64,000 bases of DNA from an uncultured Aquabacterium sp. (GTDB lineage Bacteria > Pseudomonadota > Gammaproteobacteria > Burkholderiales > Burkholderiaceae_C): the NCBI RefSeq assembly GCF_947366995.1, contig NZ_CANBCC010000004.1, forward strand, positions 1 through 64,000, given 5' to 3'. Within the stretch, counting starts at the first letter, position 1; each line of letters opens with the position of its first letter. Below are positions 44,676-64,000 of this stretch, one piece after another. A program made the position numbers and the translations under genes. The notes under the pieces were generated by a model. That model was not told where the DNA came from and did no database searches. It saw nothing but the letters and a program-made list of their open reading frames with translations.

Positions 44676-44861
44676 ACAACCCAACGGCACTGAAAGGTTC
44701 CGGGGTCCGGTTAGACGGCCAGCGTCCTGCGGGTGATCAAGCACCTACCAGGTCCAAGGCTGACTAGCGTCGGGCAGGTCAAGCCGCAAGGCACTTCGTA
44801 TCAAGCGGCACTTGTTCGCCGGCGCTGTCGCCGGGTAGTTTCAACGTCAAAGGATCAGATC

Positions 44862-45812: not shown

Positions 45813-45841
45813 TCGACCGGCCCGCAGGGGCTCAAGCGAAC

Positions 45842-45867
45842 AGGCCGCCCCACGGGGCGGCCTTTTT
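45842..45867 (+). terminator. Terminator of first flagellin gene
   Basis: AGGCCGCC-N6-GGCGGCCT followed by TTTTT, 30 bases after the fliC stop. It keeps the first flagellin as a one-gene transcript. Confidence 0.9.
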
Positions 45868-46043
45868 CATGGGGTGGATCAAGATGCGAAATAGCCCCCA
45901 AAAGCCGGTCACATCGCGGCCTTGCCCCTGACCCAAAAGTCTCACCATTGCACTCACTACAGGTCGAAGGTGACACCGTCTTTGGCCAGCCAATAGCCGG
46001 CCGGCGTGCATGCCGGGAGTCACGGGTTCTTTAGGAGTGCAAC

Positions 46044-46979
46044 ATGCCCCAAACGATCAACACGAACATCGTTTCGCTCAACGCCCAGCGGAATCTGAAC
46101 ACCTCGCAGACCTCGCTGTCCACTTCGATGCAGCGTCTGTCATCGGGCCTGCGCGTCAACTCCGCCAAGGATGACGCCGCGGGTCTGGCGATCGCCGAGC
46201 GCATGAACACCCAGGTCCGCGGCATGAACGTCGCGATCCGCAACGCCAACGACGGCATCTCCTTCTCGCAGACTGCGGAAGGCGCACTGGGCAAGATCGG
46301 CGACAACCTGCAGCGCATGCGTGAGCTGGCAGTCCAGTCGCGCAACGCCACGAACTCGGAAGGCGACCGCGCCAACCTGCAGAAGGAATTCGCGCAACTG
46401 CAGGGAGAAATCTCCCGGACGATCGATGGCACCAAGTTCAACGGCAAGCCGCTCTTCTCGTCCACCGCAGCCACCACACTGGAATTCCAGGTCGGCGCGG
46501 GCACGACCAACGAAGACACGATCGACATCAAGGGGGCGGTGCTCGGCGGCGGCTCCGCCATCTCTGCCTCCTCCGCGATTGCATCGACCTCTACGTCGGC
46601 TGTGCAGGACCTCATGGCCACGGTGGTTGGCGCCTTCGACGGCACGAACGGCATTGCAATCGGTGGCGGAACGGGCAGCACACTGGCCAGCGCAGCCGAG
46701 ATCGATGACGCCATCAACGCCATCGACAAGGCGCTCGACGTGGTCAACGACCAGCGCGCCGATTTCGGCGCTGCACAGAACCGTTTCGAGGCCGTGATCT
46801 CGAACCTCCAGGTGAGCGTCGAGAACCAGGCCGCGGCCCGCGGACGCATCATGGATGCCGACTTCGCCGCCGAAACAGCCAACCTGTCGCGCGCCCAGAT
46901 CCTGCAGCAGGCCGGCACCGCGATGGTGGCGCAAGCCAACCAGCTGCCGCAGCAGGTTCTGAAGCTGCTGCAAGGCTGA
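46044..46979 (+). CDS. Flagellin B
   Basis: A 311-residue flagellin, very similar to the first at both ends and different in the central region (about 165-225) and in its N-terminal MPQTINTNIVSLNAQ. The C-terminal end is QQVLKLLQG. TTTAGGAG lies just before the ATG. I found no convincing sigma-28 site in the 176 bases after the preceding terminator. Two flagellins may be mixed in the filament or used in different conditions. No hairpin with a T-run follows. Confidence 0.96.
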   Translation: MPQTINTNIVSLNAQRNLNTSQTSLSTSMQRLSSGLRVNSAKDDAAGLAIAERMNTQVRGMNVAIRNANDGISFSQTAEGALGKIGDNLQRMRELAVQSRNATNSEGDRANLQKEFAQLQGEISRTIDGTKFNGKPLFSSTAATTLEFQVGAGTTNEDTIDIKGAVLGGGSAISASSAIASTSTSAVQDLMATVVGAFDGTNGIAIGGGTGSTLASAAEIDDAINAIDKALDVVNDQRADFGAAQNRFEAVISNLQVSVENQAAARGRIMDADFAAETANLSRAQILQQAGTAMVAQANQLPQQVLKLLQG

Positions 46980-47018
46980 CATCCCGCGAACTTCTTCACG
47001 CGATGGGATCAGCGCGGC

Positions 47019-47045
47019 TCAAGTTCCGTGAACGACAGCCGATTC
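47019..47045 (+). promoter_or_regulatory. Sigma-28-like promoter of fliD
   Basis: TCAAGTTC-N11-GCCGATTC has exact spacing and 6 of 8 bases in each element of the flagellar sigma-28 consensus. It lies 59 bases before the fliD ATG. Confidence 0.7.
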
Positions 47046-47104
47046 CTTCGATGTCCGGGTGGTGAGTCACTGCCTGGACTGTTGTGCATTGAGAGGGGCA
47101 GATC

Positions 47105-48550
47105 ATGGCGTCGTTATCTTCACTGGGGGTTGGCAGCGGACTGGATGCGGAATCCATCGTCACCAAGCTGGTGGCGATCGAAAAGCAGCCCGCACAGGTC
47201 ATTGCCACGCAGAACTCGAAGCTGGAAACCAAGGTTTCCACGTGGGGCAAGATCCAGAGTGCGTTTTCCGCATTGCAGGACGCTGCAAAGGCGCTGAACA
47301 AGTCCGATTTCTGGACGGCCACCACGGCGTCGTCCAGCGACGCGTCAGCGGTGGCCGTCACGTCAACGTCAGAAAGTGCGGCAGGCGCCTACAGCGTCAA
47401 CGTGTCCGCACTCGCGTCGGCGCAGTACATCGCCAGCAAGCCGTTTGCAGCCAAGACCTCCGCCGTGGGGCAGGGCGAGATCCGCATTCAGCTTGGCACC
47501 TACGCAAACGATCCGGACAACGCACCGCCCGCGGCCACCTTCAACGCGAAGGCCGCCGCGCAGGAAGTGAAGATTTCGATCGGGCCTGAGGACAACACGC
47601 TCGAGAAGATCCGTGACCGCATCAACAGTGCGAACGCGGGCATCACCGCCTCGCTCGTCACGGACGCGTCGGGCACACGCCTCATCATGCGCGGCTCCAC
47701 CGGCAGCGAGAACGGCTTCAAGGTCGACGTAACGGAAGACGCAGCCGCGCCGGGCCTCTCCGCGCTGGCGTACGACGGCACCAAGGTCAAAGCCGAGAAC
47801 CCGATGGCGCGCACGCAACTCGCGGGCAATGCGGTGGCCGAGATCAACGGCATCTCGGTGTCCTCCAGCAGCAACACGTTCAGCAACGTCCTCGAGGGTG
47901 TGAGCCTGACGGTCGGAAAGGTCACCAGTTCGCCCGTTTCGGTGAACGTGACCTCAGACACCTCCAGCATCAAGAAGGGCATCGACACCTTCGTCTCGGC
48001 CTACAACAACGTCGTCAGCACCATCCGCGTTCAGACGCTGTACGACGAAGCTTCCAAGACCGCCGGCCCGCTGCAAGGCGACGCGACCGCGCGAGGATTG
48101 CTCTCCCAGATCCGAAGCCTGATGGGAAGCGAAACGGGGGCTTCAAGCGTGTTCTCGCGCCTGCCGGACATCGGCCTCGACATTGGCAAGGACGGCACGC
48201 TCAGCACGAAGTCATCCAAGCTGAACGCCGCGCTGGACAACCTGCCGGAGATGAAGAAGTTCTTCTCCAACGTGAACGAGGCAGACACGACCAAGAACGG
48301 GATCGGGCAGCGCGTCGCAGAGCTGACCAAGAAGCTCCTCCAGGACGATGGCGCCATCGACTCCAAGACGGATGGCCTCAACAGCACCATCAAGCGCAAC
48401 AAGGACAAGATCGAACGGATCGAAGACCGCGTCACGCTGATGGAGGCCCGCTTGCGGGCGCAGTACTCGGCCCTGGACACCAATGTCTCCAAGCTCAGTG
48501 GGCTGCAGAGTTACGTGTCCGCACAGCTCGCGGCCTTGAACAAGAACTGA
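47105..48550 (+). CDS. fliD: Flagellar filament cap protein
   Basis: A 481-residue hook-associated protein 2 that caps the filament and inserts flagellin. The N-terminal SSLGVGSGLDAESIVTKLVAIEKQP is the FliD_N signature. The C-terminal helical FliD_C domain (about 240-480) includes FVSAYNNVVSTIR and the final QYSALDTNVSKLSGLQSYVSAQLAAL coiled coil. It follows flagellin B and precedes fliS. Confidence 0.95.
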   Translation: MASLSSLGVGSGLDAESIVTKLVAIEKQPAQVIATQNSKLETKVSTWGKIQSAFSALQDAAKALNKSDFWTATTASSSDASAVAVTSTSESAAGAYSVNVSALASAQYIASKPFAAKTSAVGQGEIRIQLGTYANDPDNAPPAATFNAKAAAQEVKISIGPEDNTLEKIRDRINSANAGITASLVTDASGTRLIMRGSTGSENGFKVDVTEDAAAPGLSALAYDGTKVKAENPMARTQLAGNAVAEINGISVSSSSNTFSNVLEGVSLTVGKVTSSPVSVNVTSDTSSIKKGIDTFVSAYNNVVSTIRVQTLYDEASKTAGPLQGDATARGLLSQIRSLMGSETGASSVFSRLPDIGLDIGKDGTLSTKSSKLNAALDNLPEMKKFFSNVNEADTTKNGIGQRVAELTKKLLQDDGAIDSKTDGLNSTIKRNKDKIERIEDRVTLMEARLRAQYSALDTNVSKLSGLQSYVSAQLAALNKN

Positions 48551-48585
48551 GGGCGTAGTCACCGCCTGTTTCAGGGCTAAACGGG

Positions 48586-48612
48586 TCAAGCTTGCTCACA
48601 GCAGGTCGATAA
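48586..48612 (+). promoter_or_regulatory. Sigma-28-like promoter of fliS
   Basis: TCAAGCTT-N11-GTCGATAA has exact spacing and 7 of 8 bases in the -10. It lies 36 bases before the fliS ATG and would drive fliS-fliT and perhaps the YcgR-like gene. Confidence 0.7.
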
Positions 48613-48648
48613 CCAATACATCAGTCGTCAACCCAGCAGAGCACCAAG

Positions 48649-49116
48649 ATGTTTGCACCTGCCAGCCCGTTTTCCCGCCCTCTCCCCGCCGGAGACCGCA
48701 CGATGTCCGCGATGTACAAGCAAGTGGGCGTCGAGACCAGCATCAGCGGCGCGTCTCCACACAAGCTCATCAAACTGCTGCTCGCCGGCTACTTCGATGC
48801 CGTGGCCGAAGGCCGTGGCGCCATGAAGGCCGGTGACATGGCCGCCAAGGGCAACGCCCTGGGTCGGGCGTTGCGCATCGTCGACGAAGGTCTCAAAGCC
48901 AGCCTCGATCTGCGAGCCGGTGGAGAACTGGCTCAGAATCTGAGCGACCTCTACGGCTACGTCTGCCTCCGCCTCACTCACGCCAATCTGCGCAACGACG
49001 AGGCGGCGCTCGACGAATGCAACGCCCTCATGCAACCGATTCGTGAAGCGTGGGAAGGCATCAACGCAGGCGAGAGCCATACCGCCTACGCCTCTGGCAT
49101 GGAGCTCCGCGCATGA
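48649..49116 (+). CDS. fliS: Flagellin export chaperone
   Basis: A 155-residue helical chaperone that binds the flagellin C-terminus before export. The core YKQVGVETSISGASPHKLIKLLLAGYFDAVAEGRGAM is typical FliS text. The start may be the ATG at 48649 (used) or one at 48703 (MSAMYKQ); the latter fits the family length better but has a weaker context. Its stop overlaps the fliT-like ATG (ATGA). Confidence 0.92.
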   Translation: MFAPASPFSRPLPAGDRTMSAMYKQVGVETSISGASPHKLIKLLLAGYFDAVAEGRGAMKAGDMAAKGNALGRALRIVDEGLKASLDLRAGGELAQNLSDLYGYVCLRLTHANLRNDEAALDECNALMQPIREAWEGINAGESHTAYASGMELRA

Positions 49117-49460
49117 ACGCCCCCGAAATCCTCGGCCACCCCGACGAAGAACTCTTCCACGGCAGCCTGCTGGGCTACTACGAAGCGATCGAGACCGCCA
49201 GCCACGACATGCTCAACGCCGCCCGCAAGGGCGACTGGGACACCGTGGTGAAGCTGGAAGGCGCCTGCGCCGTGCTGATCGCGCAGCTCAAGCACGCCTC
49301 GGAAGAGCACCCGATGGGCCCGTCGGAACTGGCGCTCAAGACGCGCATCATGCAGCGCATCCTTGTCAACGACGCCGAGATCCGCAACCTGGCCGAGCCG
49401 TGGATCAACGACCTCAGTCGCATGATGGGCAACACCACCGATCCGACGAAGATGCATTGA
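49113..49460 (+). CDS. fliT: FliT-like flagellar chaperone
   Basis: A 115-residue, mostly helical protein in the fliT position: GYYEAIETASHDMLNAARKG, LEGACAVLIAQLK and MQRILVNDAEIRNLAEPW. FliT chaperones FliD. Sequence conservation in this family is low, so the call rests on size, helical character and the 4-base overlap with fliS. Confidence 0.8.
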   Translation: MNAPEILGHPDEELFHGSLLGYYEAIETASHDMLNAARKGDWDTVVKLEGACAVLIAQLKHASEEHPMGPSELALKTRIMQRILVNDAEIRNLAEPWINDLSRMMGNTTDPTKMH

Positions 49461-49479
49461 GCCCTCGGGCTAATCCGAC

Positions 49480-50244
49480 ATGGACACCCGCACCCCTTCC
49501 ACGCCCGCATCACGCGGGCGTGTTGCCGATCTGGACGACTACCGCATCACGTCGGCCGTCGAGATTGCAGCACTGCTCCGCCAGATGCACGACGAGCACG
49601 CACTGGTCACCCTGAGTGCGCCGGGCGGCGCCAGCTACACCACGGTGCTGCTGACCATCGACCCGCAGCGTCACACGGTGACCCTGAGTGCCGAAGAGGG
49701 CGATGCCCGCATTCAGGCCCTGCTCGACAGCAACGAGGTGTCAGCCGTCGCCTACCTTGACAGCATCAAGGTCGAGTTCGACATGGATGGCCTCGTGCTC
49801 GTGCACGGCACCCAGGGCAGCACCCTGCACGCGAGCCTGCCGACCGTGGCCTACCGCTTCCAACGCCGCGCCGCCTTCCGTGTGCAGCCGCTGGCATCGA
49901 GCACCCCCCTGGCGCGGTTGGTTCACCCGGCTCGGCCCGATGCCCCGCTCGTGTTGCGCGTGCTGGACGTCAGCCTGCATGGCGTGGCGCTCCTGCTGCC
50001 GCCCGATGCCCCCATGGTGGCCGCGGGCAGCCGCATCCAGGCTGTCGACCTGGAGCTGGACGAGGAAACCCAGCTGAGCTGCGATCTCATCGTGCACCAC
50101 GTGACCGCCCTGGGCACGCAGGCCCCGGCGCACCGACTGGGCTGCGAGCTGGCCGGCATCGACCCGCGCGACCGCACACTGGCCCTGTACGTGAACCAGA
50201 CGCAGAAGCGTCGACTCGCCACCTTGGGCAGCATCAAAGGCTGA
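49480..50244 (+). CDS. YcgR-like PilZ flagellar brake protein
   Basis: A 254-residue c-di-GMP effector. An N-terminal YcgR domain (about 25-125) is followed by a PilZ domain with the arginines of [11 protein letters not shown] (about 124-134) and the [11 protein letters not shown] motif (about 166-176), close to the RxxxR...D/NxSxxG c-di-GMP signature. YcgR slows the flagellar motor on binding c-di-GMP. It begins 19 bases after fliT. Confidence 0.88.
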
Positions 50245-52105: not shown

Positions 52106-53266
52106 GTGACCGATACCACCCCACCTCAAGCCACCGAGCCCGCACTGCCCGTGTCCCCTCGCGCAGGCGACGACACCGTCACCCCGTCCGGGCAGCCCGG
52201 GTGGATGCGATGGACCGTTCTGGCGCTGGCCGCCGCCGCCGTCGCGACCGGCTGGTCTGCCTGGCAGACGCAGCAGCGCGTGCACAGCCTCGAACAGGAA
52301 TTGGTGCGCCGACAGCAGGACAGCCAGGGCCAGGCCACCGAGGCCCGCGTGGCCGCCAAGCAGGCCCAGGAGCTCTCGCGCGAGGCTGCGGCCCGCGCCA
52401 CGCTGCTCGAAACCCGCCTGGCCGAAGTCGCCCTGCAGCGCACGCAGGTCGAAGACCTGGTCAAGAACCTCAGCCAGTCACGCGACGAGAACCTGCTGGC
52501 CGACATCGAATCAAGCCTGCGCGTGGCCGCACAGCAGGCCTCGCTGACGGGCAGCGCCGATCCCATCGTGGCCGCACTGCAATCGGCCGATGAACGCCTG
52601 ACCCGCACCCGCCAGCCCCGGCTGGACAACGTGCGCCGCGCCATCGCCAAGGACCTTGACCGCGTGAAAGCCACGCGCGTGGCCGACCTCGTCACCCTGG
52701 GCATCCGCCTCGACGAGGCCATCCGCCTCATCGACGAGGTGCCCTTGCTCAACCAGCCCGAGGCCACCATGGCGAAGGGCCGCCCGGTGCCCGCCCCCAG
52801 CCGGCCCGCGCTGCGCAACGCCCAGGCCACCAAGGGTGCCTCTGCCCCGGGCGCGGCCTCCGAAGCGGCCTCTGGCGAGCCCGGCTGGGGCGAGCAGGTG
52901 CTGGGCTGGATCAGCGGCTCTGCCCGCACCGTGTGGGATGAGACCCGCGGCCTCGTCCGCCTGACCCGCGTGGACCGCCCCGAAGCGATGCTGATGTCGC
53001 CCGAGCAGGGTTTCTTCATGCGCGAGAACATGAAGCTGCGCCTGCTCAATGCCCGCGTGGCCCTGCTGAGCCGGCAGACGCACACCGCCACCGCCGACCT
53101 GCAAGCCACGCAGCAGGCCGTGTCCCGCTATTTCGACACCAGCTCGCGCAAGACCCAGCTGCTGCAATCGCTGCTGGCCGAAGTGATCGGCCAGGGCCAG
53201 CACACCGTGGTGCCCCGCCCCGATGACACGCTGGCCGCGCTCATCGCGGTCAACGGCGGTCGCTGA
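52106..53266 (+). CDS. hemX: HemX-like uroporphyrinogen-III C-methyltransferase family membrane protein
   Basis: A 386-residue protein: one transmembrane helix near 34-52, a long coiled coil (about 57-130), then the HemX domain. The GTG at 52106 is chosen; the frame is open upstream within hemD but without an RBS or conservation. Despite the name, HemX lacks SAM-methyltransferase motifs; it probably has a structural or regulatory role beside HemY. Confidence 0.88.
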   Translation: MTDTTPPQATEPALPVSPRAGDDTVTPSGQPGWMRWTVLALAAAAVATGWSAWQTQQRVHSLEQELVRRQQDSQGQATEARVAAKQAQELSREAAARATLLETRLAEVALQRTQVEDLVKNLSQSRDENLLADIESSLRVAAQQASLTGSADPIVAALQSADERLTRTRQPRLDNVRRAIAKDLDRVKATRVADLVTLGIRLDEAIRLIDEVPLLNQPEATMAKGRPVPAPSRPALRNAQATKGASAPGAASEAASGEPGWGEQVLGWISGSARTVWDETRGLVRLTRVDRPEAMLMSPEQGFFMRENMKLRLLNARVALLSRQTHTATADLQATQQAVSRYFDTSSRKTQLLQSLLAEVIGQGQHTVVPRPDDTLAALIAVNGGR

Positions 53267-53286
53267 GCCCCGGAAGGACCCAAGGC

Positions 53287-54543
53287 ATGCGTTCCATCGT
53301 CTGGCTTCTGCTGCTGGCCGTCGTGGCCGTGGTCGGGGCCACCGCCCTCGGCGCCAATGACGGCCTCGTCACCCTCTACTGGATGGGCTGGCGCGCCGAC
53401 CTCTCGCTCAACCTCTTCCTGATCAGCCTGATCCTGATCTACCTGGCCGTGTACTCGCTGATCCGCGGGCTCGACGGCCTGCTGGACCTGCCGCAGCGCG
53501 CCCGACGCTGGCGCCTGAACCAGCGCGACCGCCTGGCCCAGGCGGCCCTGCGTGAAGGGCTGGCGCTGTACATGGCCGGCCGCTACAGCCGCGCCCACCG
53601 CGCCTGCCAGAAGGCGATCGCCATCCAGGCCGACACACCCGAACTGGCGCTCGATGCCGAGTTCACGGCCCTGGCCCACCTGCTGTCGGCTGGCAGCCTG
53701 CACCGCCTGCAGGACCGCCCGCGCCGCGACGAGCAGTTGCGTCGCGCCATCGAGCTCTCGCAGCTGACGCGCAAGCCGCGCCCGACCGAAGAGGGCGCAC
53801 GCCTGATGGCCGCCGAATGCGCGCTGGAAGACCGCGACGCCCCCAAGGCCCTGCGCGATCTGGCCGAATTGCCGCCCGGCGTGGCACGCCGCACCCAGGC
53901 CCTGCGTCTCAAGCTCCAGGCTGCCCGGCTGGCCCGCCAGCCCGTCGAGGCGCTGCGCACCGCCCGCCTGCTGGCCAAGCACCAGGGCTTCACACCGGTT
54001 GCCGCCGAAGGCCTGCTGCGCACACTGGCCACCGAGACACTCGATTCGGCCCGCGACGCCGACCAGCTCCGCAACGTGTGGTCGCACCTCGACCCCGCTG
54101 ACCGGCGCGACGCCATGGTGGTGGCGCACGCCGCACGGCGCATGGCCTCGCTCGGCGCCCCGGCCGATGCCCGTCAGTGGCTGGCCCCGCTGTGGGACCG
54201 CCTGCCCGAGCAATCGCCCGAGGCCGTCGACGCGCTGACCCAGGCGCTGGGCGACAGCCTGATCGGCCTGGAAGCCGAGTGGCTGCCACGCCTGGATGCC
54301 TACACGCAGATGGCCCTGCGCCATCCGGGCCTGGCGCTGGTGCTGGGCCTGGCGTTGTCGGAACGACAGCTGTGGGGCAAGGCGCGCGGCATGCTGATGT
54401 CGGCGGCCAATGACCAGGCGCTGGACACCGAGCGGCGCCGCACGGCCTGGGCCGCGTTGGGCCAGCTTGCCGAACGCGAACACCGCGACGACGAAGCCGC
54501 TCGCTTCTACCGTCGGGCCGCGCTGCCCGGCGAACGTGACTGA
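53287..54543 (+). CDS. hemY: Heme biosynthesis protein HemY
   Basis: A 418-residue inner-membrane protein: two N-terminal helices (about 3-20 and 40-60), then a HemY_N domain and tetratricopeptide-like helices. This is the proteobacterial HemY, not the Bacillus protoporphyrinogen oxidase. It closes the hem operon and is followed by a strong hairpin. Confidence 0.92.
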   Translation: MRSIVWLLLLAVVAVVGATALGANDGLVTLYWMGWRADLSLNLFLISLILIYLAVYSLIRGLDGLLDLPQRARRWRLNQRDRLAQAALREGLALYMAGRYSRAHRACQKAIAIQADTPELALDAEFTALAHLLSAGSLHRLQDRPRRDEQLRRAIELSQLTRKPRPTEEGARLMAAECALEDRDAPKALRDLAELPPGVARRTQALRLKLQAARLARQPVEALRTARLLAKHQGFTPVAAEGLLRTLATETLDSARDADQLRNVWSHLDPADRRDAMVVAHAARRMASLGAPADARQWLAPLWDRLPEQSPEAVDALTQALGDSLIGLEAEWLPRLDAYTQMALRHPGLALVLGLALSERQLWGKARGMLMSAANDQALDTERRRTAWAALGQLAEREHRDDEAARFYRRAALPGERD

Positions 54544-54545
54544 CC

Positions 54546-54585
54546 CGCCGCGGCGGTGTGGCGCCCACCACACTGTGCCGCGGCG
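54546..54585 (+). terminator. Long GC hairpin after hemY
   Basis: A 9-bp outer stem (CGCCGCGGC with GCCGCGGCG) encloses a 6-bp inner stem (GTGTGG with CCACAC). It begins 3 bases after the hemY stop. No T-run follows directly; a small GCAC-A5-GTGC hairpin and TTTT come next. It probably ends or stabilises the hem transcript. Confidence 0.5.
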
Positions 54586-54606
54586 ACGCACAAAAAGTGC
54601 ACCGTT

Positions 54607-54636
54607 TTGACGGCAGGGCCGAAAACATGCTATAGT
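54607..54636 (+). promoter_or_regulatory. tRNA-Arg promoter
   Basis: TTGACG (54607-54612), an 18-base spacer and TATAGT (54631-54636) lie just ahead of the first tRNA; predicted start near 54643. Confidence 0.75.
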
Positions 54637-54647
54637 TTCACTTCTCG

Positions 54648-54724
54648 GCGGCTGTAGCTCAGTTGGATAGAGTACTTGGCTACGAACCAAGGGGTCGTGG
54701 GTTCGAATCCTGCCAGCCGCACCA
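54648..54724 (+). tRNA. tRNA-Arg (anticodon ACG), copy 1
   Basis: 77 nt, with CCA encoded. Acceptor GCGGCTG pairs with CAGCCGC; the anticodon stem CTTGG/CCAAG encloses CTACGAA, giving anticodon ACG; the T-loop is TTCGAAT. A34 is normally deaminated to inosine by TadA to read CGN codons. Confidence 0.97.
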
Positions 54725-54755
54725 GTTTCATCACTGGTAGCCGAGAACATTTTTA

Positions 54756-54832
54756 GCGGCTGTAGCTCAGTTGGATAGAGTACTTGGCTACGAACCAAGG
54801 GGTCGTGGGTTCGAATCCTGCCAGCCGCACCA
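54756..54832 (+). tRNA. tRNA-Arg (anticodon ACG), copy 2
   Basis: Identical over all 77 nt to the first copy, 31 nt downstream. The same promoter and terminator serve both, so they are one transcript. Identity of the copies points to recent duplication or gene conversion. Confidence 0.97.
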
Positions 54833-54854
54833 AGCACATTGCGTTGTGCGCCAG

Positions 54855-55883: not shown

Positions 55884-56579
55884 TCAGACCGGCGGCTGGC
55901 TGAGCCTGCGTCGCGTCCACCACAGCAGGGTGGCCACGCCGGCGAACACCGCGGCCAGGCTGGCCCAAGCGCCGGGTCCCGGCTCGCGCCACACCGCGAC
56001 CACACGGTCCATGAACAGCGACATCCCGACCGTGCCGGGCAGCAGGCCGAGAAAGCTGCCGAGCACGTAATCACGCAGTCGAACGCCCAGCGCACCGGCC
56101 GCCACATTCACCACCAGAAACGGCGCCACCGGCAAGGCGCGGACCACCGCCACCGTCCACAGACCGCGCCGGTGCAAGTGCGCCGACAGCAGCGCCAGCC
56201 GCCCGCCCGCCGCCCGGTCGATCAGCGCCGGGCCGCTCCAGCGTCCCACCGCCCAGGCGACGACCGCCCCCGCCAGCATCCCCGCCATCGCGTAGGCCAT
56301 GCCGGGCCACGGCCCGAACACCAGCACCCCCGCGGCAATCAGTGCGGCCACGGGCACCGCCAGGAACACGGCCAGCACGTAGCCGCCGATCACGGCCAGG
56401 GAGCCGAACGGGGTCTTCAGCAACGTGCGTCCGGCCTCGGACAAGGCCGGCAGACTCAGCAGCGCCCTGGCCTGCGGCTGCTGCCACAGCCAGACGAGGC
56501 CCACGCCCACCAGCGCGTAAGCCGCAATGAATAGAAAGCGCGTCCGTCGCAACGGAGGCACAGACAGCGAGGAAAGCAC
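55884..56579 (-). CDS. VTT-domain (TVP38/TMEM64, DedA-like) membrane protein
   Basis: A 231-residue polytopic membrane protein. Helices lie near 15-32 and 55-85, with the VTT core (GSLAVIGGYVLAVFLAVPVA, FGPWPGMAYAMAGMLAGA, VVRALPVAPFLVVNVAAGA, GLLPGTVGMSLF). The GTG at 56579 is chosen because GGAG lies 7 bases upstream; the only upstream ATG in frame adds 64 Arg/Gly-rich residues. Family members affect lipid transport or membrane homeostasis. It lies 145 bases downstream of the LOV kinase on the same strand. Confidence 0.88.
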   Translation of the reverse strand: MLSSLSVPPLRRTRFLFIAAYALVGVGLVWLWQQPQARALLSLPALSEAGRTLLKTPFGSLAVIGGYVLAVFLAVPVAALIAAGVLVFGPWPGMAYAMAGMLAGAVVAWAVGRWSGPALIDRAAGGRLALLSAHLHRRGLWTVAVVRALPVAPFLVVNVAAGALGVRLRDYVLGSFLGLLPGTVGMSLFMDRVVAVWREPGPGAWASLAAVFAGVATLLWWTRRRLSQPPV

Positions 56580-56724
56580 GGACGGTCTCCAGGCGCGGCG
56601 GCCCCATCGCCGCGCGCGCAGAGCGATGCTGCCCCGGCCCTCCGCACCCGGCCATGCGGGGATGCCCCCGAACAAGGCCGCAGCCCCCGCGCTTCGGGGA
56701 TGCCCGCATCCCGCACGCCACACC

Positions 56725-59505
56725 TCAGGCCATGGCCGCCTCGGACTCGCCTTGCTGCGCCACAGGCGCACCGCTCACCACCGGCAACCACAGCACCACC
56801 GTGGTCCCCGCACCGTGCTCGCTGGTCAGCATCACCTGTCCACCGTGCAGCTCGATGATCTCCTTCACGATGGTCATGCCCAGGCCGGTGCCCGGGATGT
56901 TGCCCGAGGTGTCGGCGCGGAAGAAGCGCTCGAACACCCGCTCGAGCTGGTCGGGCGTCATGCCGAGCCCGTGGTCGGTGACCTGGATGCCGACTTCGCC
57001 CTGCACCCCTTGCAGCCCCTGCGACCGCCACAGCAGCGACAGCTCGATGGCGCCGCCCCCCGGGGAGTACTTGTAGGCGTTGGACAGCACGTTGGTCAGC
57101 GCCAGCGACAGCTTCTCCCGGTCGACGTCGACGACGATGGCCTCCTCGGGCAGGTGGTAGTCCACCTTGCGGGGGTCGTTGTGCACCAGCAGGCCCGACA
57201 GCGTGGCCTCGATCAGCGGCTGCAGCACCTGGCGCTCGCGCTTGAAGTCCTTGCCCCGGCGCGACTCGATGCGGGCCAGGTCCAGCAACTCGTTGACAAG
57301 GTTGATGAGCACCTGCGCCTGCCGGTGGATGGTCGACAGCATGTCGTTGCGGCGCTCGTCGCTGAACTGGCGCTTGAGCAGCAGTTCGGTGAAGCCGAAG
57401 ATGCTGGCCATCGGGGTGCGCAGTTCGTGTGCGGCCATCGACAGGAACTCGCTCTTCATGCGGTCCACCTCCCGCTCGTGCGTGACATCGCGGAAGTACA
57501 TGACGGTCTCGTTGTCCTGCCCGCCGTGTCGAACGCGGCGCGTGAGCGTGCGAGCACACGGTGTGTGCAGGTGCAGCAACTCGCGCGGGCCGAACTGGCG
57601 GGCATCGCCCTCCGGCCCCTGCCCTTCGACCGACACCACGGCATCCGTCTCGACCCACTGACAACGCGCCATCAACTGCTCTTCCAGCGCCTCGATCGAC
57701 TGCCCGACCAGATCGGCCGCCAGCAAGCCGGTCATGCGCTCGAAGGCCGGGTTCACGATGCTGACCTCGCCCCGCTTGTCCAGCACCACAAAGCCATCGG
57801 GGCTCAGATCGAACACGGCGTTGAGCCGCTCGGTGCGCAGTTGCAGCACCTGCTCGGCCGCGATGCGATCGGTGATGTCCGACTGCACGCCAACGTAATG
57901 CGTCAGCGCGCCCTCGGCATTGAGCACCGGCGAGATGGCCAGCTCGTTGTAGAACAGGCTGCCATCCTTGCGGTAGTTGCGCACCACGACCTGGCAGGGC
58001 CGGCCCTCACGGATGGCCTCCCGCATGGCCTCCACGCCGGGCTGGTTGCGGTCATGCCGCTGCAGCAGGCTGCAGTTCAGGCCCAGCACCTCATGGGCCT
58101 CGTAGCCCGTGATCTTCTCGAACGCCGCGTTCACGTAGATGACCGGGTGGTTGGGCAAGGTCATCGACGCGATCACCACGCCATCGGCCGACGAGGCCAG
58201 CGCACGGTCACGCAGGATGAGCTCCTGCTCGGCCCACTTCGCGTCGGTGGTGTCGCGCACGATGAAGGTCTGGATGCGCTCGCCGTCCAGCGTGGCCCGG
58301 CTCGCCGACACCGCCACCGGAAAGGCCGTGCCCTCGTTGCGCAGCCCCGTGGTCTCGCAGCCGATCACGCGGTTGGAGAAACCGTGGTTGGCAAACCAGT
58401 CGTCCAGACCGTCCGGCGACAGGGCGGGCAGCACGCTGTCGATCGGCTGGCCCACGAGCACGTCGGGCGGCCGGCCGAAGATGCTGGTGGTGGCCTGATT
58501 GCACCAGCGGACCAGCCCCTGGCCATCGACCATCACGATGGCATCGGCCGCCGTGTCCATGACCGCCTGGTTGCGCGACTGTGTGCGCTCCAACTCCGCC
58601 GACATCTCGCTCGCCATGCGGGCCGCGCGCCTGCGCGTGGAGATGAGCATCAGGTAAACATGCAGCGCCGTGAGCGTGCAGACCAGCCCGAACGCGGCCG
58701 CCGCCCACACGCTGGCGTAGCGCATCAGGCCCTGCCACCACCCACGCGCCTGTTCGTGGCCCTGCAACGTGAGAGTCAGGCGCTCACCAGCCAGCATGAT
58801 GCCGACGTCACGGTGCCAGCGGGTGAGTGCGGCCTCGTCGAGCGCGGGCGCCGCGGGCAAGCGCGCCCCCTCATGCAGCGGCACAGGTACCTTGCCGAAC
58901 AGCCGCGCCCACAGCAGCCAGTCGCCGCGAGACAGGGCCGCGGGCAGCAGATCGGCGTCGTTCAGCAGCGCCACGACCCAGCCTCGCGAAGCGGGCAGCG
59001 CCCGTGCCATGAAGCGGTTCTCGCTCGCCGCCCCGGTGGCTGGCGGACACAAGGTGGTGGCACCGACCTCCACGTGCACCAGGCAGGACGCCAGCGCCTC
59101 GCTGTCGGCCGGGGTGTAGCCCCCCAGTCGGCTCAAGGCCGCGGGCGATGCGGCCTCGCCATTCACGCGCAGGATCCGGGCGGCGGGCCAGCTGGCAGAT
59201 GCCATCCCGCGGTCATTGGCGCCGAACAAGGCCGCTGCCTGCTCCAGCGTCATCACACGCTGCATCAACCGATCCTGCAGCAACATCTGCAGCCGCACCG
59301 CATCGGCGTCGAACTCGTGTCGGGTGCGCTCGGCCTCGATGCGCCACACGGTGAAGACCATGGCCGAGGTCAGCAGCACCCCGATGGCCCCGATGAGCGT
59401 CAGCGCATGCCCCAAGGGAATCCGCCCGGTCAGGCGCTCCAGCGCCGAGATGAGCCGCTCGAGGGTGGCGGGAAGCTCCACAGCATCGCGACGGTGGTTC
59501 ATCAT
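56725..59505 (-). CDS. Membrane sensor histidine kinase with PAS-LOV-PAS domains
   Basis: A 926-residue kinase. Helices at about 33-55 and 266-288 bracket a periplasmic domain. Then PAS (about 311-420), a LOV-type PAS (about 432-548), a third PAS (557-680), HisKA with His693 in AAHELRTP, and HATPase (NVLSNAYKYSPGG, DHGLGM, GTGLGMTIV). The LOV domain has the GVVIASMTLPNHPVIYVN start and GLNCSLLQ with Cys478 at the photo-adduct position (codon 58072-58074). It also keeps FMN-contact residues Asn477, Gln482, Asn510 (NYRKDG), Asn520 (YNEL) and Gln541 (VGVQSDIT). Arg and Phe of the canonical NCRFLQ are Ser and Leu. AGGAG precedes the ATG at 59505. It follows a CheY-like gene on the same strand. 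Blue-light sensing is likely by family, unproven. Confidence 0.9.
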   Translation of the reverse strand: MMNHRRDAVELPATLERLISALERLTGRIPLGHALTLIGAIGVLLTSAMVFTVWRIEAERTRHEFDADAVRLQMLLQDRLMQRVMTLEQAAALFGANDRGMASASWPAARILRVNGEAASPAALSRLGGYTPADSEALASCLVHVEVGATTLCPPATGAASENRFMARALPASRGWVVALLNDADLLPAALSRGDWLLWARLFGKVPVPLHEGARLPAAPALDEAALTRWHRDVGIMLAGERLTLTLQGHEQARGWWQGLMRYASVWAAAAFGLVCTLTALHVYLMLISTRRRAARMASEMSAELERTQSRNQAVMDTAADAIVMVDGQGLVRWCNQATTSIFGRPPDVLVGQPIDSVLPALSPDGLDDWFANHGFSNRVIGCETTGLRNEGTAFPVAVSASRATLDGERIQTFIVRDTTDAKWAEQELILRDRALASSADGVVIASMTLPNHPVIYVNAAFEKITGYEAHEVLGLNCSLLQRHDRNQPGVEAMREAIREGRPCQVVVRNYRKDGSLFYNELAISPVLNAEGALTHYVGVQSDITDRIAAEQVLQLRTERLNAVFDLSPDGFVVLDKRGEVSIVNPAFERMTGLLAADLVGQSIEALEEQLMARCQWVETDAVVSVEGQGPEGDARQFGPRELLHLHTPCARTLTRRVRHGGQDNETVMYFRDVTHEREVDRMKSEFLSMAAHELRTPMASIFGFTELLLKRQFSDERRNDMLSTIHRQAQVLINLVNELLDLARIESRRGKDFKRERQVLQPLIEATLSGLLVHNDPRKVDYHLPEEAIVVDVDREKLSLALTNVLSNAYKYSPGGGAIELSLLWRSQGLQGVQGEVGIQVTDHGLGMTPDQLERVFERFFRADTSGNIPGTGLGMTIVKEIIELHGGQVMLTSEHGAGTTVVLWLPVVSGAPVAQQGESEAAMA

Positions 59506-59573
59506 GGCCTCACTCCTTGCGCCCACGAGGGGGCCGACGCGGGGCGACTGGCACCCCCGGTGCAGGGCTGCCC

Positions 59574-59951
59574 TCAGGCGACGGTCGAGACCATGGCTTC
59601 CACGCGCTCGATCAGCTCCAGCGGGCTGAACGGCTTGACCAGGTAGGCGTCGGCACCAGCGGCCTCGCCAGCGGCAAGGTCCGTCGCCTGACCCCGCGCC
59701 GTCAGCATCACCACCTGGATGGCCTTCAGTTCGGGATCCTGCTTGATGCGGGCGCACACCTGGTAGCCGTCCAGCAGGCCCGGCATCATCACGTCCAGCA
59801 GCATCACCGTGGGCCGGATGGCGCGGGCCATGGCCAGACCGGACTCGCCGTCGTGGGCCTCGTGGATCTCGAAATCGCCGAACTCCAGCGTCATGCGGAT
59901 CAGCTTGCGGATGTCGGCCTGGTCTTCAACAATCAGGATGCGGTGGGCCAT
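59574..59951 (-). CDS. CheY-like single-domain response regulator
   Basis: A 125-residue stand-alone receiver: acidic pair in VEDQAD, phospho-Asp53 in LLDVMMPG, Thr in LTARG and Lys in LVKPFSP are intact. It has no output domain. It lies 68 bases before the LOV kinase and 10 bases after the pseudo-kinase gene, so it is a likely phosphate target of the LOV kinase. Confidence 0.92.
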   Translation of the reverse strand: MAHRILIVEDQADIRKLIRMTLEFGDFEIHEAHDGESGLAMARAIRPTVMLLDVMMPGLLDGYQVCARIKQDPELKAIQVVMLTARGQATDLAAGEAAGADAYLVKPFSPLELIERVEAMVSTVA

Positions 59952-59961
59952 GTCTGTCTCC

Positions 59962-61050
59962 TCAGGTGACTTTCTTGCTCATGCTGCGGGCCAGCAGCTG
60001 CGACATGTCGCGCGCATAGCGCTGAGCCTGCTCCACGGACAGTTGGGCGTCCTGCGTGGCGGGGGCCCCCGCCGGGATCTCGAGCACGAAGTCGACGCCA
60101 TCGAAGTCGTCCTCGATGCGTACCGAGCCGCCGTGCTGTTCCAGGATGCGTTGACTCAGCGCCAGGCCGATACCTTGCCGTGCCACGGGTTTGGGTGAGT
60201 CGCCCACCCCGAAGGGCACATAGGCCTTGCGGCGCTCGTGGTTGGACACGAACAGGCCCTGGTTACGGGCGCGCACCATCACGCGCGTGCCCACGGCCTG
60301 CACCGACAGGTCGATGAGCCCGCCCGGCTGCGCGCTGCGGATGGACTGCTCCAGGTACTCGGACATGGCCTTGCCCAGCCAGTGCACGCTGCCATAGACC
60401 GGGGGCAACTCCCCATCGATGCCGTTGACGGCCACGGTCACATTGCGGGCGTCGGCCAGGTACATCACCTCGTCCAGCGCCTTGCGCAGCAGATCGGGCA
60501 GCAGGATGCGCTCGTCGCGCTGGATGGCACTCTCGCCGAAGACGCTGACCAGATCGTGCAGCTTGCCCAGCTTGCCCGACAGCGCAGAGGCCTCTTCGGC
60601 CAGCGCCTGCAGTTCGGGCGCGATGCCCGGGCGGGCCAGAATCTGGCCGATGGCCGGCAGCTTGCCCGCCAGCAATTCGATCGGGCGGGCCATTTCGGCG
60701 TCGATGTAGCCGATCAGGTTCTCGAGCGCGTGCGAATACCAGCGCTCCTCCGACACGTTGTTGAGCACCACCATCAGGTCGTTGCCCACCGGCGCGTTGA
60801 TCACCACCGCGCGGATCGTGTCGGGGTTCACCTCCTGCGTGGTCAGCTCGAACTGGAAAGGCAGGGTCAGCATGTTCTGCCCAGCCGCCTTGACGGTGCG
60901 CTCGGCCACCGGGTCCATCATCGGCTGGCCCAGCATCACCGGCGTCATCTGCACCGCGGCCTTGTTGGCATAACGCACCACCCCGTTGCGCTGCACCCAG
61001 ACCACGCCACTCTTGACCTGGTCAAACAACATCCGGAAAGCGTCGTTCAT
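59962..61050 (-). CDS. Degenerate PAS-histidine-kinase-like protein
   Basis: A 362-residue protein: PAS (about 5-100), a two-helix DHp-like region (about 103-170) and an HATPase-like domain (about 180-328). In the DHp region, IDAEMARPI aligns with the usual SHELRTPL, putting Ala118 where the phospho-His should be. In the ATPase part, the N-box Asn is Gln (EYLEQSI) and the G1 Asp is Asn (ARNQG); only the G2 box GIGLALSQRILEQHGG is well kept. It should neither autophosphorylate nor bind ATP normally. It may act as a scaffold or allosteric partner. It is 21 bases after the MerR-receiver gene and 10 bases before the CheY-like gene. Confidence 0.85.
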   Translation of the reverse strand: MNDAFRMLFDQVKSGVVWVQRNGVVRYANKAAVQMTPVMLGQPMMDPVAERTVKAAGQNMLTLPFQFELTTQEVNPDTIRAVVINAPVGNDLMVVLNNVSEERWYSHALENLIGYIDAEMARPIELLAGKLPAIGQILARPGIAPELQALAEEASALSGKLGKLHDLVSVFGESAIQRDERILLPDLLRKALDEVMYLADARNVTVAVNGIDGELPPVYGSVHWLGKAMSEYLEQSIRSAQPGGLIDLSVQAVGTRVMVRARNQGLFVSNHERRKAYVPFGVGDSPKPVARQGIGLALSQRILEQHGGSVRIEDDFDGVDFVLEIPAGAPATQDAQLSVEQAQRYARDMSQLLARSMSKKVT

Positions 61051-61071
61051 GGTGATCCCCTTCTGGCGCCT

Positions 61072-61755
61072 TCAACTGACACGCTGGCCCAGCAACTGAC
61101 GCCCGACCCGCACGGCAATCGCCTCGGGCGACACCGGCAGATGAATCAGCTCGGCAGCGGCGGGCAACCCTCCACGGCGGGCGATCTCATGGTCGCTGGC
61201 CGCACTCAGCACCAGCACGCGCATGCCGGCCAGTGACTCGCACCGCTCCAGCGTCCGCAGCATCGCCATGCCATCCATCCCGGGCAATTCCAGGTTGGTC
61301 ACCAGCAGGTCGGGCGCACGCTGGCCGATCTGCAGCAGGGCCAGGTAGCCGGTTTCAGCCATCCGCATGGTCACCGAGGGCCCGAACGGCTGCACCGCGG
61401 CTTCACAGCGTGCCTGCCACTGCGGGTCATCGGCCACCAGCAGCACGTCCAGTGGCCGGGTGCCCTGCACGGCATCGCGCGGCCGCGGGGGCTGTGGCTG
61501 CATCTCGGGCACCGCAGCCAGGGCCCGGGCGCGCTCGTCCGCGCGCGGAGGCTCCCCGCCCAGCCCCGTGCTCAAGGCCAGCGCCTCGACCGCGTTGTAC
61601 GGAATGCGTCGGTGCCCCCCGGGCGTGCGAGCCGCCGGCAGGATGTCGGCCTCGACCCACAGCTGCACGGTGCGCAGCGAGACGCCCAGGCGCAGGGCGG
61701 CCTCGCGGGTGGTCAGCATGCGGGCCGCGGGGCCCAGAGGGATCACGTGGGACAT
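61072..61755 (-). CDS. MerR-type HTH protein with pseudo-receiver domain
   Basis: A 227-residue regulator. Residues 12-62 form a MerR/excisionase-type winged HTH (LTTREAALRLGVSLRTVQLW, then TPGGHRRI). A Pro/Arg-rich linker (65-100) leads to a receiver-fold domain (about 102-225). The acidic pair DD109-110 is kept, but the phospho-Asp is Asn154 (LLVTNLELPGMDG, codon 61294-61296) and the conserved Lys is Leu206 (IHLPVSP). Thus phosphorylation should not control it. The ATG at 61755 has AAGG 7 bases upstream; longer starts reach 61812 or further. It is the first gene of the four-gene signalling run and is divergent from greB. Confidence 0.85.
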   Translation of the reverse strand: MSHVIPLGPAARMLTTREAALRLGVSLRTVQLWVEADILPAARTPGGHRRIPYNAVEALALSTGLGGEPPRADERARALAAVPEMQPQPPRPRDAVQGTRPLDVLLVADDPQWQARCEAAVQPFGPSVTMRMAETGYLALLQIGQRAPDLLVTNLELPGMDGMAMLRTLERCESLAGMRVLVLSAASDHEIARRGGLPAAAELIHLPVSPEAIAVRVGRQLLGQRVS

Positions 61756-61927
61756 GGGACAAACCTTTTTGTCGCGCCAGTTGGTGGTCTCAACCATGTT
61801 GTCGGCAGACATTTCAGTTTTTCGAGTTCCCAGGTCCCTTCGGAGGTCGCCCCGTGCACGAAACACCCCCGGTGCGTGCAGAAGTCGCATTTGGCGCGCT
61901 CCGGCGGATTGGGCACAATCGCGTCCC

Positions 61928-62500
61928 ATGAGCAAAGCCTTCACGAAGGAAGCCGAAGGCGACGAGGACGACGACGTCGCCCTGCCGCCGCTGCCTGCCG
62001 GCACCAAGAACTACATGACGCCCGAGGGCTACCAGCGACTGCGTGCCGAGCTGGTCGGCCTGATCGACGTGGAACGCCCCAAGGTGGTGGAGATCGTCCA
62101 CTGGGCGGCCTCCAATGGCGACCGCAGTGAGAACGGCGACTACCTCTACGGCAAGAAGCGCCTGCGCGAGATCGACCGCCGCATCCGCTTCCTCACGAAG
62201 CGGCTGGACCGCGCCGAGGTGGCCGACCCCACCGCGCACCATGGCAACGACCAGATCTTCTTTGGGGCCACCGTCACCTACGCCAACCAGGCGGGGGTGG
62301 AACGCACCATCACGATCAAGGGCATCGACGAGGTCGACAACCTCAATGGCGAAGTCAGTTGGATCTCGCCGATCGCCCGCGCGCTGCTGAAGGCCCGCGA
62401 AGGCGACGAGGTGCAACTGATGACACCCGGCGGGCTGGAGCGGCTCGAAGTCATCGAAGTGCGCTACCCCGCACCAGCCCGAGAGACCGACGCGCCCTGA
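61928..62500 (+). CDS. greB: Transcription elongation factor GreB
   Basis: A 190-residue factor that stimulates RNA cleavage by backtracked RNA polymerase. The N-terminal coiled coil (about 28-105) has the acidic tip residues in SNGDRSENGDY; GKKRLREIDRRIRFLTKRLD is the GreB form; the C-terminal FKBP-like domain ends in ARALLKAREGDEV. The N-terminus carries an extra acidic stretch (EAEGDEDDD). It converges on spoT with a 15-base gap. Confidence 0.94.
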   Translation: MSKAFTKEAEGDEDDDVALPPLPAGTKNYMTPEGYQRLRAELVGLIDVERPKVVEIVHWAASNGDRSENGDYLYGKKRLREIDRRIRFLTKRLDRAEVADPTAHHGNDQIFFGATVTYANQAGVERTITIKGIDEVDNLNGEVSWISPIARALLKAREGDEVQLMTPGGLERLEVIEVRYPAPARETDAP

Positions 62501-62515: not shown

Positions 62516-64000
62516 TCAGGGGCAGACGCGCTCGGCCTTGATGACCACGTTGCAGCGCCGCAGCGCGCGCAGCACGTCCGACAGGTGCTCGGTGTCGCGC
62601 ACCGCCACCGTCAGGCGCAGCTCCGCCGTCTGGCCCAGGCGCTCGTCGCCCATCTCGATGTGGGTGATATCGGTTTCGGCCGTGCTGATGGCCGAGGCCA
62701 CCTGCGCCAGCACGCCCTTGCCATTGGTGACCGTCACGGCCAGCACGGTTTCGAATGCCCTCGTCGGCTCCTCCGCCCAGCTCACGTCGATCCAGCGCTC
62801 GCTGTCCCGCTCGAACAGGCGTCGTCCCACGCCGCAGTGCTGCGTGTGCACCACCAGGCCCTCGCCGCGGCCCAGATAGCCCGCAATCGGATCGCCCGGC
62901 ACGGGCGTACAGCACGGCGCCAGGCGCACGGTGGCGCCCTCGCTGCCGTCGATCACCACCGAGCCCTGCGTCGGCGCCTCGGCCGCCGCAAATCGGCCCA
63001 GCGTCAGCGTCAGCGCGTCCGGCCGCTCGCCCGACTCGGCCATCAGCTGTGCCAGGCGTTTGGCCACCATGGGCGCGATCTTGCGGCCCAGGCCGATGTC
63101 GATCAGCAGTTCGCGCTGGCTGCGGTTGCCGCCCCAGCGCACCAGGTTCTGCCAGAGGGCACCTTCCGCACCCGGACTCTCGTCGTCGCCACTGGGCAGC
63201 GTGAGCCCCTCGGCACGCAACGCCTGCGCCAGCAGCTTCTCGCCCAGCTCCAGTGACTCCTCCGCCTCCATCGCCTTCAGATAGCTGCGGATCTTGGAGC
63301 GAGCCCGGCCCGTGCGCACGAAATTCAGCCAGCCCGGATTCGGCCGCGCGCTCGGTGCCGTGATGATCTCGACCACGTCGCCGCTGTGCAGTTGCGAGCG
63401 CAACGGCACCGGCTCCCCATTGACCTTGGCCGAGACGCAGCGGTCGCCCACCCCCGAGTGGATGGCGTAGGCAAAGTCCACCGGCGTCGCGCCCTTGGGC
63501 AGCGCCACGATGCGCGACTTCGGCGTGAGCACATACACCGACTCCGGGAACAGGTCGATCTTCAGGTGCTCGAGGAATTCCGCCGAATCCCGCGTCTCGT
63601 GCTGGATGTCGATCAACGACTGCAGCCACACCGCCGCCTGCTGCGGCGACGCATCGCCGGGCTCCTCCTGCTCCTTGTACATCCAGTGCGCCGCAATGCC
63701 CTTCTCGGCCACCGCGTGCATGGCTTGCGAGCGGATCTGGAACTCCACCGCCGTGCCCACCGGGTTCACGAGCGTGGTGTGCAGCGACTGGTAGCCGTTG
63801 GCCTTCGAGATCGCGATGTAGTCCTTGAAGCGCCCCGGCAGCGGCTTGTAGAGCTGGTGCAGCACGCCCAGCGCCGTGTAGCACTCCAGCAGTTCGTTGG
63901 TCACGATGCGAAAACCGAAGATGTCGCTGACCTGCGCGAAGCTCAGGTTCTTCTCGACCATCTTGTGATAGATCGAGTAGACCGTCTTCTCGCGGCCGTA
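62516..64000 (-). CDS. spoT: Bifunctional (p)ppGpp synthetase/hydrolase, 3' part
   Basis: The C-terminal 494 codons; the 5' end runs off the window in frame. It starts inside the synthetase domain (REKTVYSIYHKM). The RFKD in PGRFKDYIAISKANGYQSLHT is the RXKD form typical of bifunctional Rel/SpoT rather than RelA. TGS (VYVLTPKSRIVALPKGATPV), the conserved Cys pair of LAPCCTPVPGD and a C-terminal ACT domain follow. The hydrolase HD domain lies outside the window. Confidence 0.95.
   Translation of the reverse strand, partial: YGREKTVYSIYHKMVEKNLSFAQVSDIFGFRIVTNELLECYTALGVLHQLYKPLPGRFKDYIAISKANGYQSLHTTLVNPVGTAVEFQIRSQAMHAVAEKGIAAHWMYKEQEEPGDASPQQAAVWLQSLIDIQHETRDSAEFLEHLKIDLFPESVYVLTPKSRIVALPKGATPVDFAYAIHSGVGDRCVSAKVNGEPVPLRSQLHSGDVVEIITAPSARPNPGWLNFVRTGRARSKIRSYLKAMEAEESLELGEKLLAQALRAEGLTLPSGDDESPGAEGALWQNLVRWGGNRSQRELLIDIGLGRKIAPMVAKRLAQLMAESGERPDALTLTLGRFAAAEAPTQGSVVIDGSEGATVRLAPCCTPVPGDPIAGYLGRGEGLVVHTQHCGVGRRLFERDSERWIDVSWAEEPTRAFETVLAVTVTNGKGVLAQVASAISTAETDITHIEMGDERLGQTAELRLTVAVRDTEHLSDVLRALRRCNVVIKAERVCP

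Follow-up and report, generated by a model that had tools for sequence, protein, structure and literature searches.

How can a signalling operon be put together when two of its four proteins lack the residues that carry phosphate, and do these two degenerate proteins belong to one system? The question is raised by four genes in a 64,000-nucleotide stretch of contig NZ_CANBCC010000004.1 (hereafter, the window), which comes from genome G000, a 4.0-Mb Aquabacterium (Burkholderiales). All four lie on the minus strand, with intergenic gaps of 21, 10 and 68 bases, in the order MerR/BldC-like helix-turn-helix (HTH) protein with a receiver (P0001), pseudo-histidine kinase (P0002), CheY (P0003) and PAS-LOV-PAS kinase (P0004):

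61072..61755, minus strand: P0001, MerR/BldC-type HTH (residues 13-59) with a receiver (residues 104-213), from the Pfam matches HTH_17 and Response_reg
59962..61050, minus strand: P0002, pseudo-histidine kinase with PAS, DHp-like and HATPase_c parts and a conserved C-terminal tail, from Pfam and alignment
59574..59951, minus strand: P0003, intact CheY-like single-domain receiver, from the Pfam match Response_reg and its residues
56725..59505, minus strand: P0004, membrane PAS-LOV-PAS histidine kinase, from Pfam and its catalytic boxes

Below, psHK is our shorthand for the pseudo-histidine kinase family of P0002, and the cassette means psHK, CheY and the sensor kinase. It turned out that psHK is a conserved family and not a local oddity. 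To judge by its sequences, psHK is probably a working reader of the neighbouring CheY and not a decayed gene. An earlier note on this DNA had joined the two degenerate proteins into one phosphate-free half of a relay. This did not hold, and we treat them here as two unrelated things.

The strand, the gaps and the state of each protein were as that note had given them. In P0002, the Pfam scan found HATPase_c and a weak, below-cut-off PAS, and no HisKA match. Ala118 stands in place of the phospho-His, Gln235 in place of the N-box Asn and Asn263 in place of the G1 Asp; the conserved C-terminal tail reads QAQRYARDMSQLLAR. At the aligned positions of the P0001 receiver, the phospho-Asp is replaced by Asn154 and the Lys by Leu206, and the acidic pair is AD, not ED. 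P0001 is above the cut-off for the TIGR01764 excisionase-type HTH, and its 34.9 bits against the BldC subfamily NF033787 do not reach the curated cut-off of 77. The other two proteins are intact. P0003 keeps the receiver residues E9, D10, D53, T84 and K106. P0004 has three PAS stretches, HisKA and HATPase_c in Pfam, with intact HisKA/HATPase boxes and the phospho-site H693, as well as two membrane-like stretches (scanning windows starting near 29-38 and 263-272) and the LOV adduct motif N477-C478 in the flavin pocket. By these residues (intact His, N and G boxes in one, Asp and Lys in the other), P0004 and P0003 are a canonical two-component pair. A 1010-amino-acid frame for the fourth gene (56725-59757) was rejected because its first part overlaps CheY, and the ATG at 59505 was used. 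Of the 20 records from a plasmid search, none reached 80% coverage of the query.

The closest relatives of the P0002 psHK are found in genome G013 (98% identity) and in an A. olei metagenome-assembled genome (93% identity). At E ≤ 1e-32, the psHK profile matched 26 of the 399 same-family genomes, in 15 of 141 genera; the next value after a gap was 6.7e-17, for partial matches resembling ordinary kinases. In the order sample, seven of 399 genomes reach E ≤ 1e-60; five of these belong to families f22, f30 and f33, and the next match there (2.8e-27) is partial. No comparable match was found outside Burkholderiales in the phylum sample of 299 genomes, where the best one outside (1.3e-26) is also partial. 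The 29 loci called diverse below are 23 same-family loci outside the genus, five loci from other families and L057 of genome G021.

The phospho-His is absent in 48 of 49 psHK sequences and present in that of L092. The position is occupied by Ala in 27 sequences, by Ser in 8, by Thr and Asp in 5 each, and by Glu, Leu, Arg and His in one each; Tyr does not occur. The psHK of L138 aligns poorly at this site and has His residues nearby. The N-box Asn is kept in 9/49 and the G1 Asp in 13/49; the G2-box columns, which are shifted by one in some rows, were left out of these counts. In L136 and L137, near-canonical ATP boxes are found without the phospho-His. Probably, permanent loss of the His came first, and the ATP site was eroded afterwards and to uneven degrees.

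Missing catalytic residues, together with the repeated loss of the cassette described below, could mean that the two degenerate genes are functionless and in decay. We consider this close to negligible. There is no internal stop among the close matches listed, both genes are under purifying selection (dN/dS of 0.21 for psHK and 0.24 for the receiver), and psHK is spread over several families with its tail conserved. The tail, which lies beyond the ATPase fold, is the most conserved psHK segment (2.92 bits), and in the loci scanned its pattern matched no open reading frame (ORF) beyond those already labelled psHK. The pseudogene reading was rejected because of the purifying selection. The median dN/dS of psHK (0.21; 129 pairs, 18 loci) lies among those of CheY (0.09), SpoT and GreB (0.16), MerR (0.25) and the LOV kinase (0.37), all of them rough values, with high dS in many pairs.

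CheY directly follows psHK in 28 of the 29 diverse loci. Counted from psHK to the first CheY residue in the alignment, the spacing is 54 bases or less, or the genes overlap by a few bases, in 27/29, and it is 160 bases in L135. All 29 also have an intact histidine kinase nearby. In 27 it is encoded downstream on the same strand; L057 has it upstream, and in L134 it is divergent and lies on the other side. The catalytic residues of CheY are kept in 47 of 47 sequences, as is the His of the partner kinase (47/47), and the other kinase boxes are intact in the 46 complete ones. The recurrence of the four-gene order that the earlier note had put forward as a check was indeed found, in 18 Aquabacterium loci and, in identical form, in six of the 29 diverse ones (L086, L087, L088, L098, L136 and L137), two of these in another family. 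L086 and L087 are from the sister genus and occupy the same spoT-greB site.

We propose that psHK, CheY and the sensor kinase form a conserved unit, in which psHK would be a DivL-like reversed kinase that senses phosphorylated CheY (CheY~P) and evolved separately from DivL. In our judgement, this proposal stands in even balance. It is built on the family, the residues, the synteny, the co-loss and the constraint, all of which are read directly from the sequences. The membrane LOV kinase would autophosphorylate on light and/or a periplasmic cue and would phosphorylate CheY at Asp53. psHK would bind CheY according to its phosphorylation state and convert this state to a conformational output via the PAS domain and the conserved C-terminal tail. 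In relatives, where genes for a MerR-type transcription factor with an intact receiver and for an HD-GYP enzyme are often near, the same kinase may drive these two proteins as well. In Aquabacterium, the MerR receiver is without phosphorylation residues and outlives the cassette. A broader version is more tentative, and we lean slightly away from it: a Burkholderiales-wide reversed-kinase family with a fixed psHK-CheY middle piece, into which any sensor kinase (LOV for blue light, H-NOX for nitric oxide, or a binding-protein type) could be plugged, with an output via the new C-terminal tail and with the trick of DivL evolved independently.

The LOV adduct Cys is present in 17 of 18 Aquabacterium partner kinases and in 11 of the 29 diverse ones. 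An H-NOX gene (PF07700-type) lies within 8/29 diverse psHK loci, HNOBA is found in three of the five partner kinases scanned, and a phosphonate-binding-type protein gene stands between CheY and the kinase in L102. HD-GYP-type genes (with HD and GYP motifs) are found in 13/29 diverse loci. Such a gene follows CheY in L093, L094, L096, L097, L099, L134 and L135, and it lies elsewhere in the fetched locus in L089, L092, L102, L108 and L137 and, as a longer protein, in L138. Genome G000 has no H-NOX gene, and the cassette in the window is also without HD-GYP. Because H-NOX, binding-protein, HD-GYP and MerR genes occur in the loci of relatives, the input part is, by gene content, exchangeable (LOV, H-NOX, binding protein), and the output there could plausibly be c-di-GMP (cyclic diguanylate) turnover and a MerR-type factor. 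Light as an essential input was rejected, since the LOV Cys is in only 11/29 diverse kinases and H-NOX or binding-protein genes are found elsewhere. The partner kinases of L050, L087, L090 and L091 have LOV-like domains without the adduct Cys, which suggests a non-photochemical PAS role for these domains.

How stable is the cassette within the genus? In Aquabacterium, its site runs from spoT-greB to MerR-receiver, psHK, CheY and LOV kinase. The neighbours in the window are the following:

61928..62500, plus strand: greB (GreA_GreB domains), divergent upstream neighbour, site marker together with spoT
62516..64000, minus strand: RelA/SpoT-type gene, cut by the window end, site marker
55884..56600, minus strand: downstream gene (approximate start) for a VTT-domain membrane protein, which bounds the cassette on its far side in most loci

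The four-gene order is found in all 18 Aquabacterium cassette loci covering all four genes; L044 is cut inside the kinase, and the contig of L031 begins inside MerR. VTT follows the cassette except in L035 and L049 (same genome), L055, and L044 (contig end). By the combined searches, 19 of 42 Aquabacterium genomes have the native cassette, a count that includes G1097, equated with L031 because the two contigs have equal length. Another 17 have the MerR-receiver gene beside greB and no psHK there, and six are without a strong MerR match. VTT directly follows MerR in 14 of the 17 cassette-less genomes; L152 has a CheY-like gene, and its contig ends without a VTT; no VTT was found at the cassette-less MerR locus of L163. 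The SpoT+GreB tree, rooted on the cassette-bearing sister genus and with several weakly supported inner nodes, gives eight losses (Dollo) or six changes (Fitch). Since psHK, CheY and the LOV kinase disappear jointly between MerR and VTT, they act as one unit and come and go almost together in Aquabacterium, where MerR is independent of the cassette. The cassette-less genome G021 (L057) has, at another place, a distant psHK (28% identity) with the gene order kinase-psHK-CheY, which looks like a replacement from outside.

The view of the earlier note was that psHK and the MerR pseudo-receiver make up an output that works by contact and without phosphate. In its favour, the two genes are neighbours in an unchanged order in all 18 complete Aquabacterium cassette loci, and 15 of the 29 diverse loci have a MerR-receiver gene no more than about 5 kb away (two more have one at about 6 kb). 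The receiver is also slightly less constrained in genomes without the cassette than in those with it (dN/dS 0.338 vs 0.242; significance not assessed). However, the receiver is canonical where the psHK family occurs outside the Aquabacterium lineage, namely in all 17 of the MerR-receiver proteins that represent 15 loci beyond this genus and the sister genus. In the sister genus (2/2), the Asp is kept, and the Lys and the acidic pair are lost. In the 18 complete Aquabacterium cassette loci, the Lys is lost in all and the Asp in 17 (L034 keeps it). In addition, the degenerate receiver persists without the cassette: both residues are lost in 16 of the 17 cassette-less genomes, and the receiver of L163 is canonical. 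A contact output of these two proteins is therefore a reading to which we give little credence, and a joint contact-based output half appears unlikely as a general rule. Because the receiver is canonical in every relative examined outside Aquabacterium and the sister genus, its decay is, on this comparison, recent and local to the Aquabacterium lineage. The pseudo-receiver was rejected as a defining part of the system for its canonical state in relatives and its persistence without the cassette. Thus, the expectation that the same residues would be missing in relatives stood for the kinase, whose losses recur widely with one sequence excepted, and failed for the receiver, whose losses are confined to Aquabacterium and, in part, the sister genus. 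Within the MerR protein, dN/dS is 0.04 for the HTH, 1.1 for the linker and 0.24 for the receiver.

When the greB-MerR spacer was footprinted in search of a MerR operator, the only result was an element beside greB, which is not attributable to MerR. In the window, GATTGGGCACAATC is located at 61907-61920, just upstream of the greB start. The 14-base GATTGTGCCSAATC (other strand) is exact in 14 of 36 aligned spacers, and its first 8 bases are found in 32/36, with the cassette present or absent. This element could be the promoter of greB or an operator.

Among the rivals, the one with most precedent is that psHK forms a heterodimer with the LOV kinase and so dampens or gates the activity of that kinase, CheY being only the phosphate acceptor. 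PAS and HATPase_c matches are common to P0004 and P0002, PAS is the most constrained psHK domain in Aquabacterium, and the pseudokinase ChrS forms heterodimers with HrrS according to an excerpt of PMC9491836. However, a heterodimer fits the exchange of kinase inputs less well than a reader of CheY does: the inputs vary (LOV, HNOBA/H-NOX) while psHK and CheY stay paired, and in L134 the kinase is on the other side and divergent. psHK also co-diverges less with the kinase than with CheY. In the diverse loci, the distance-matrix r is 0.77 for psHK-CheY and 0.53 for both psHK-kinase and CheY-kinase (0.84, 0.74 and 0.71 over 46 loci), values which include shared ancestry, come without a null and use a per-locus kinase that may not always be the ortholog. 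We regard heterodimerisation as doubtful.

The degenerate kinases Spo0B and ChpT serve as transfer proteins, and the phosphatase motif of HisKA carries Thr/Asn. psHK might likewise be a phosphotransfer protein of the Spo0B/ChpT type or a phosphatase of CheY. PhyK acts as a transfer protein, as stated in a passage of PMC5964349. In psHK, however, there is no His at the DHp site in 48/49 sequences, and the Thr/Asn of the phosphatase motif is found in 1/49 (L057). The ChpT/Spo0B-like transfer role was rejected because the phospho-site is without His, and we find this group of explanations very improbable.

Several observations weigh against psHK as a reader of CheY. The DHp, which is the putative receiver docking stretch, shows no special conservation in the family as a whole (1.94 bits vs 2.92 for the tail), and in Aquabacterium it is the least constrained part of psHK (dN/dS 0.317 vs 0.113 for PAS). 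CheY is 0.77 kb from psHK in L101, and L148 retains CheY between MerR and VTT after the loss of psHK and the kinase. A second psHK of L088 (8620-9726) is without an adjoining CheY, about 4 kb from the complete four-gene run. A related CheY is found without psHK in other cassettes, in 20 of 20 loci chosen for lacking psHK, so that psHK is not a general requirement for such a CheY; these loci (L166-L185) are 20 of 61 places, come from genomes without a psHK match and allow no inference about frequency. The limits of the distance correlations given above count here as well. The psHK-less CheY loci have a MerR-receiver in 14/20 and HD-GYP in 12/20, with a solute-binding protein gene in both of the two that were scanned. 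In L168-L170, L172-L174, L181-L183 and L185, there is a related cassette that lacks psHK and consists of CheY, HD-GYP and kinase, with a MerR-receiver gene near.

Elsewhere in the window, tandem tRNA-Arg (ACG) genes lie at 54648-54724 and 54756-54832 (plus strand). A minus-strand ORF (53128-54837) with a doubled GAAGRIRTHDPLVRSQVLYPTELQP stretch runs antisense over this pair and is likely an artefact. Flagellin genes, with Pfam confirmation for 44856-45809, lie within 44733-50244 (plus strand), and a PilZ gene of the YcgR type is at 49480-50244 (plus strand). FliD/FliS-like ORFs between the flagellin and PilZ genes were read from translations only.

The earlier note had known of no described counterpart to this unusual four-gene run, and this agrees with the literature as far as it was covered: no description of the module was found in the titles and abstract openings of open-licence PMC papers, among the matches listed. 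The closest likeness is with DivL and DivK of Caulobacter. In both cases, a PAS-bearing kinase body without the phospho-His goes together with a single-domain receiver of the CheY kind, whose phosphate comes, or in the psHK loci would come, from a separate kinase that is intact. According to excerpts of PMC4211667, DivL binds DivK~P, binds DivK to a very limited extent, and has no kinase or phosphatase activity; its phospho-site is Tyr, and its N, G1, F and G2 boxes are retained. In psHK, by contrast, the phospho-site is Ala, Ser, Thr or Asp, with no Tyr in 49 sequences, and the boxes are eroded, so psHK falls outside the DivL family by its residues. psHK also has one PAS where DivL has several, a conserved tail of its own and an operon with CheY and the kinase, and it is seen in Burkholderiales only. 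The DivL structure 4q20 is among 59 psHK profile matches (E 7e-15) and is not the best PDB match.

We know of no pseudo-kinase partner for LovK-LovR, and the kinase class of LovK differs from that of P0004. As described in part of PMC5964349, LovK-LovR also uses a LOV kinase together with a single-domain receiver, and it is alphaproteobacterial. The Shewanella H-NOX/HnoK-HnoB-HnoC-HnoD network, in the portions of PMC6335343 and PMC8846402 used here, likewise branches from a sensor kinase input to a DNA-binding regulator, a c-di-GMP enzyme and a degenerate modulator enzyme, and H-NOX and HD-GYP genes stand beside many relatives of the cassette. However, the degenerate part is HD-GYP-like there and a kinase here, and the cassette in the window has LOV and no H-NOX. 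Like the pseudo-receivers and aspartate-less receivers in excerpts of PMC4395418 and PMC12632262, the P0001 receiver is without Asp (and without Lys); it differs from them in being fused to a MerR/BldC-like HTH and in a lineage-specific loss with canonical relatives. Since its state is graded, from canonical in distant loci through half-lost in the sister genus to lost in Aquabacterium with or without the cassette, the control of pseudo-receivers can be tested in sister strains.

In an excerpt of a published census, the phospho-site is missing in 0.9% of HisKA and 2.0% of receivers (PMC12632262). A missing phospho-His is thus rare, and DivL is, among the papers used here, the one studied precedent for the reading of a phosphorylated receiver by such a protein. 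A recurrent, operon-encoded psHK beside CheY provides a clean test of whether receiver reading by a dead kinase evolved more than once. The known kind here is a pseudo-histidine kinase with a single-domain receiver, and the cassette is a variant of that kind.

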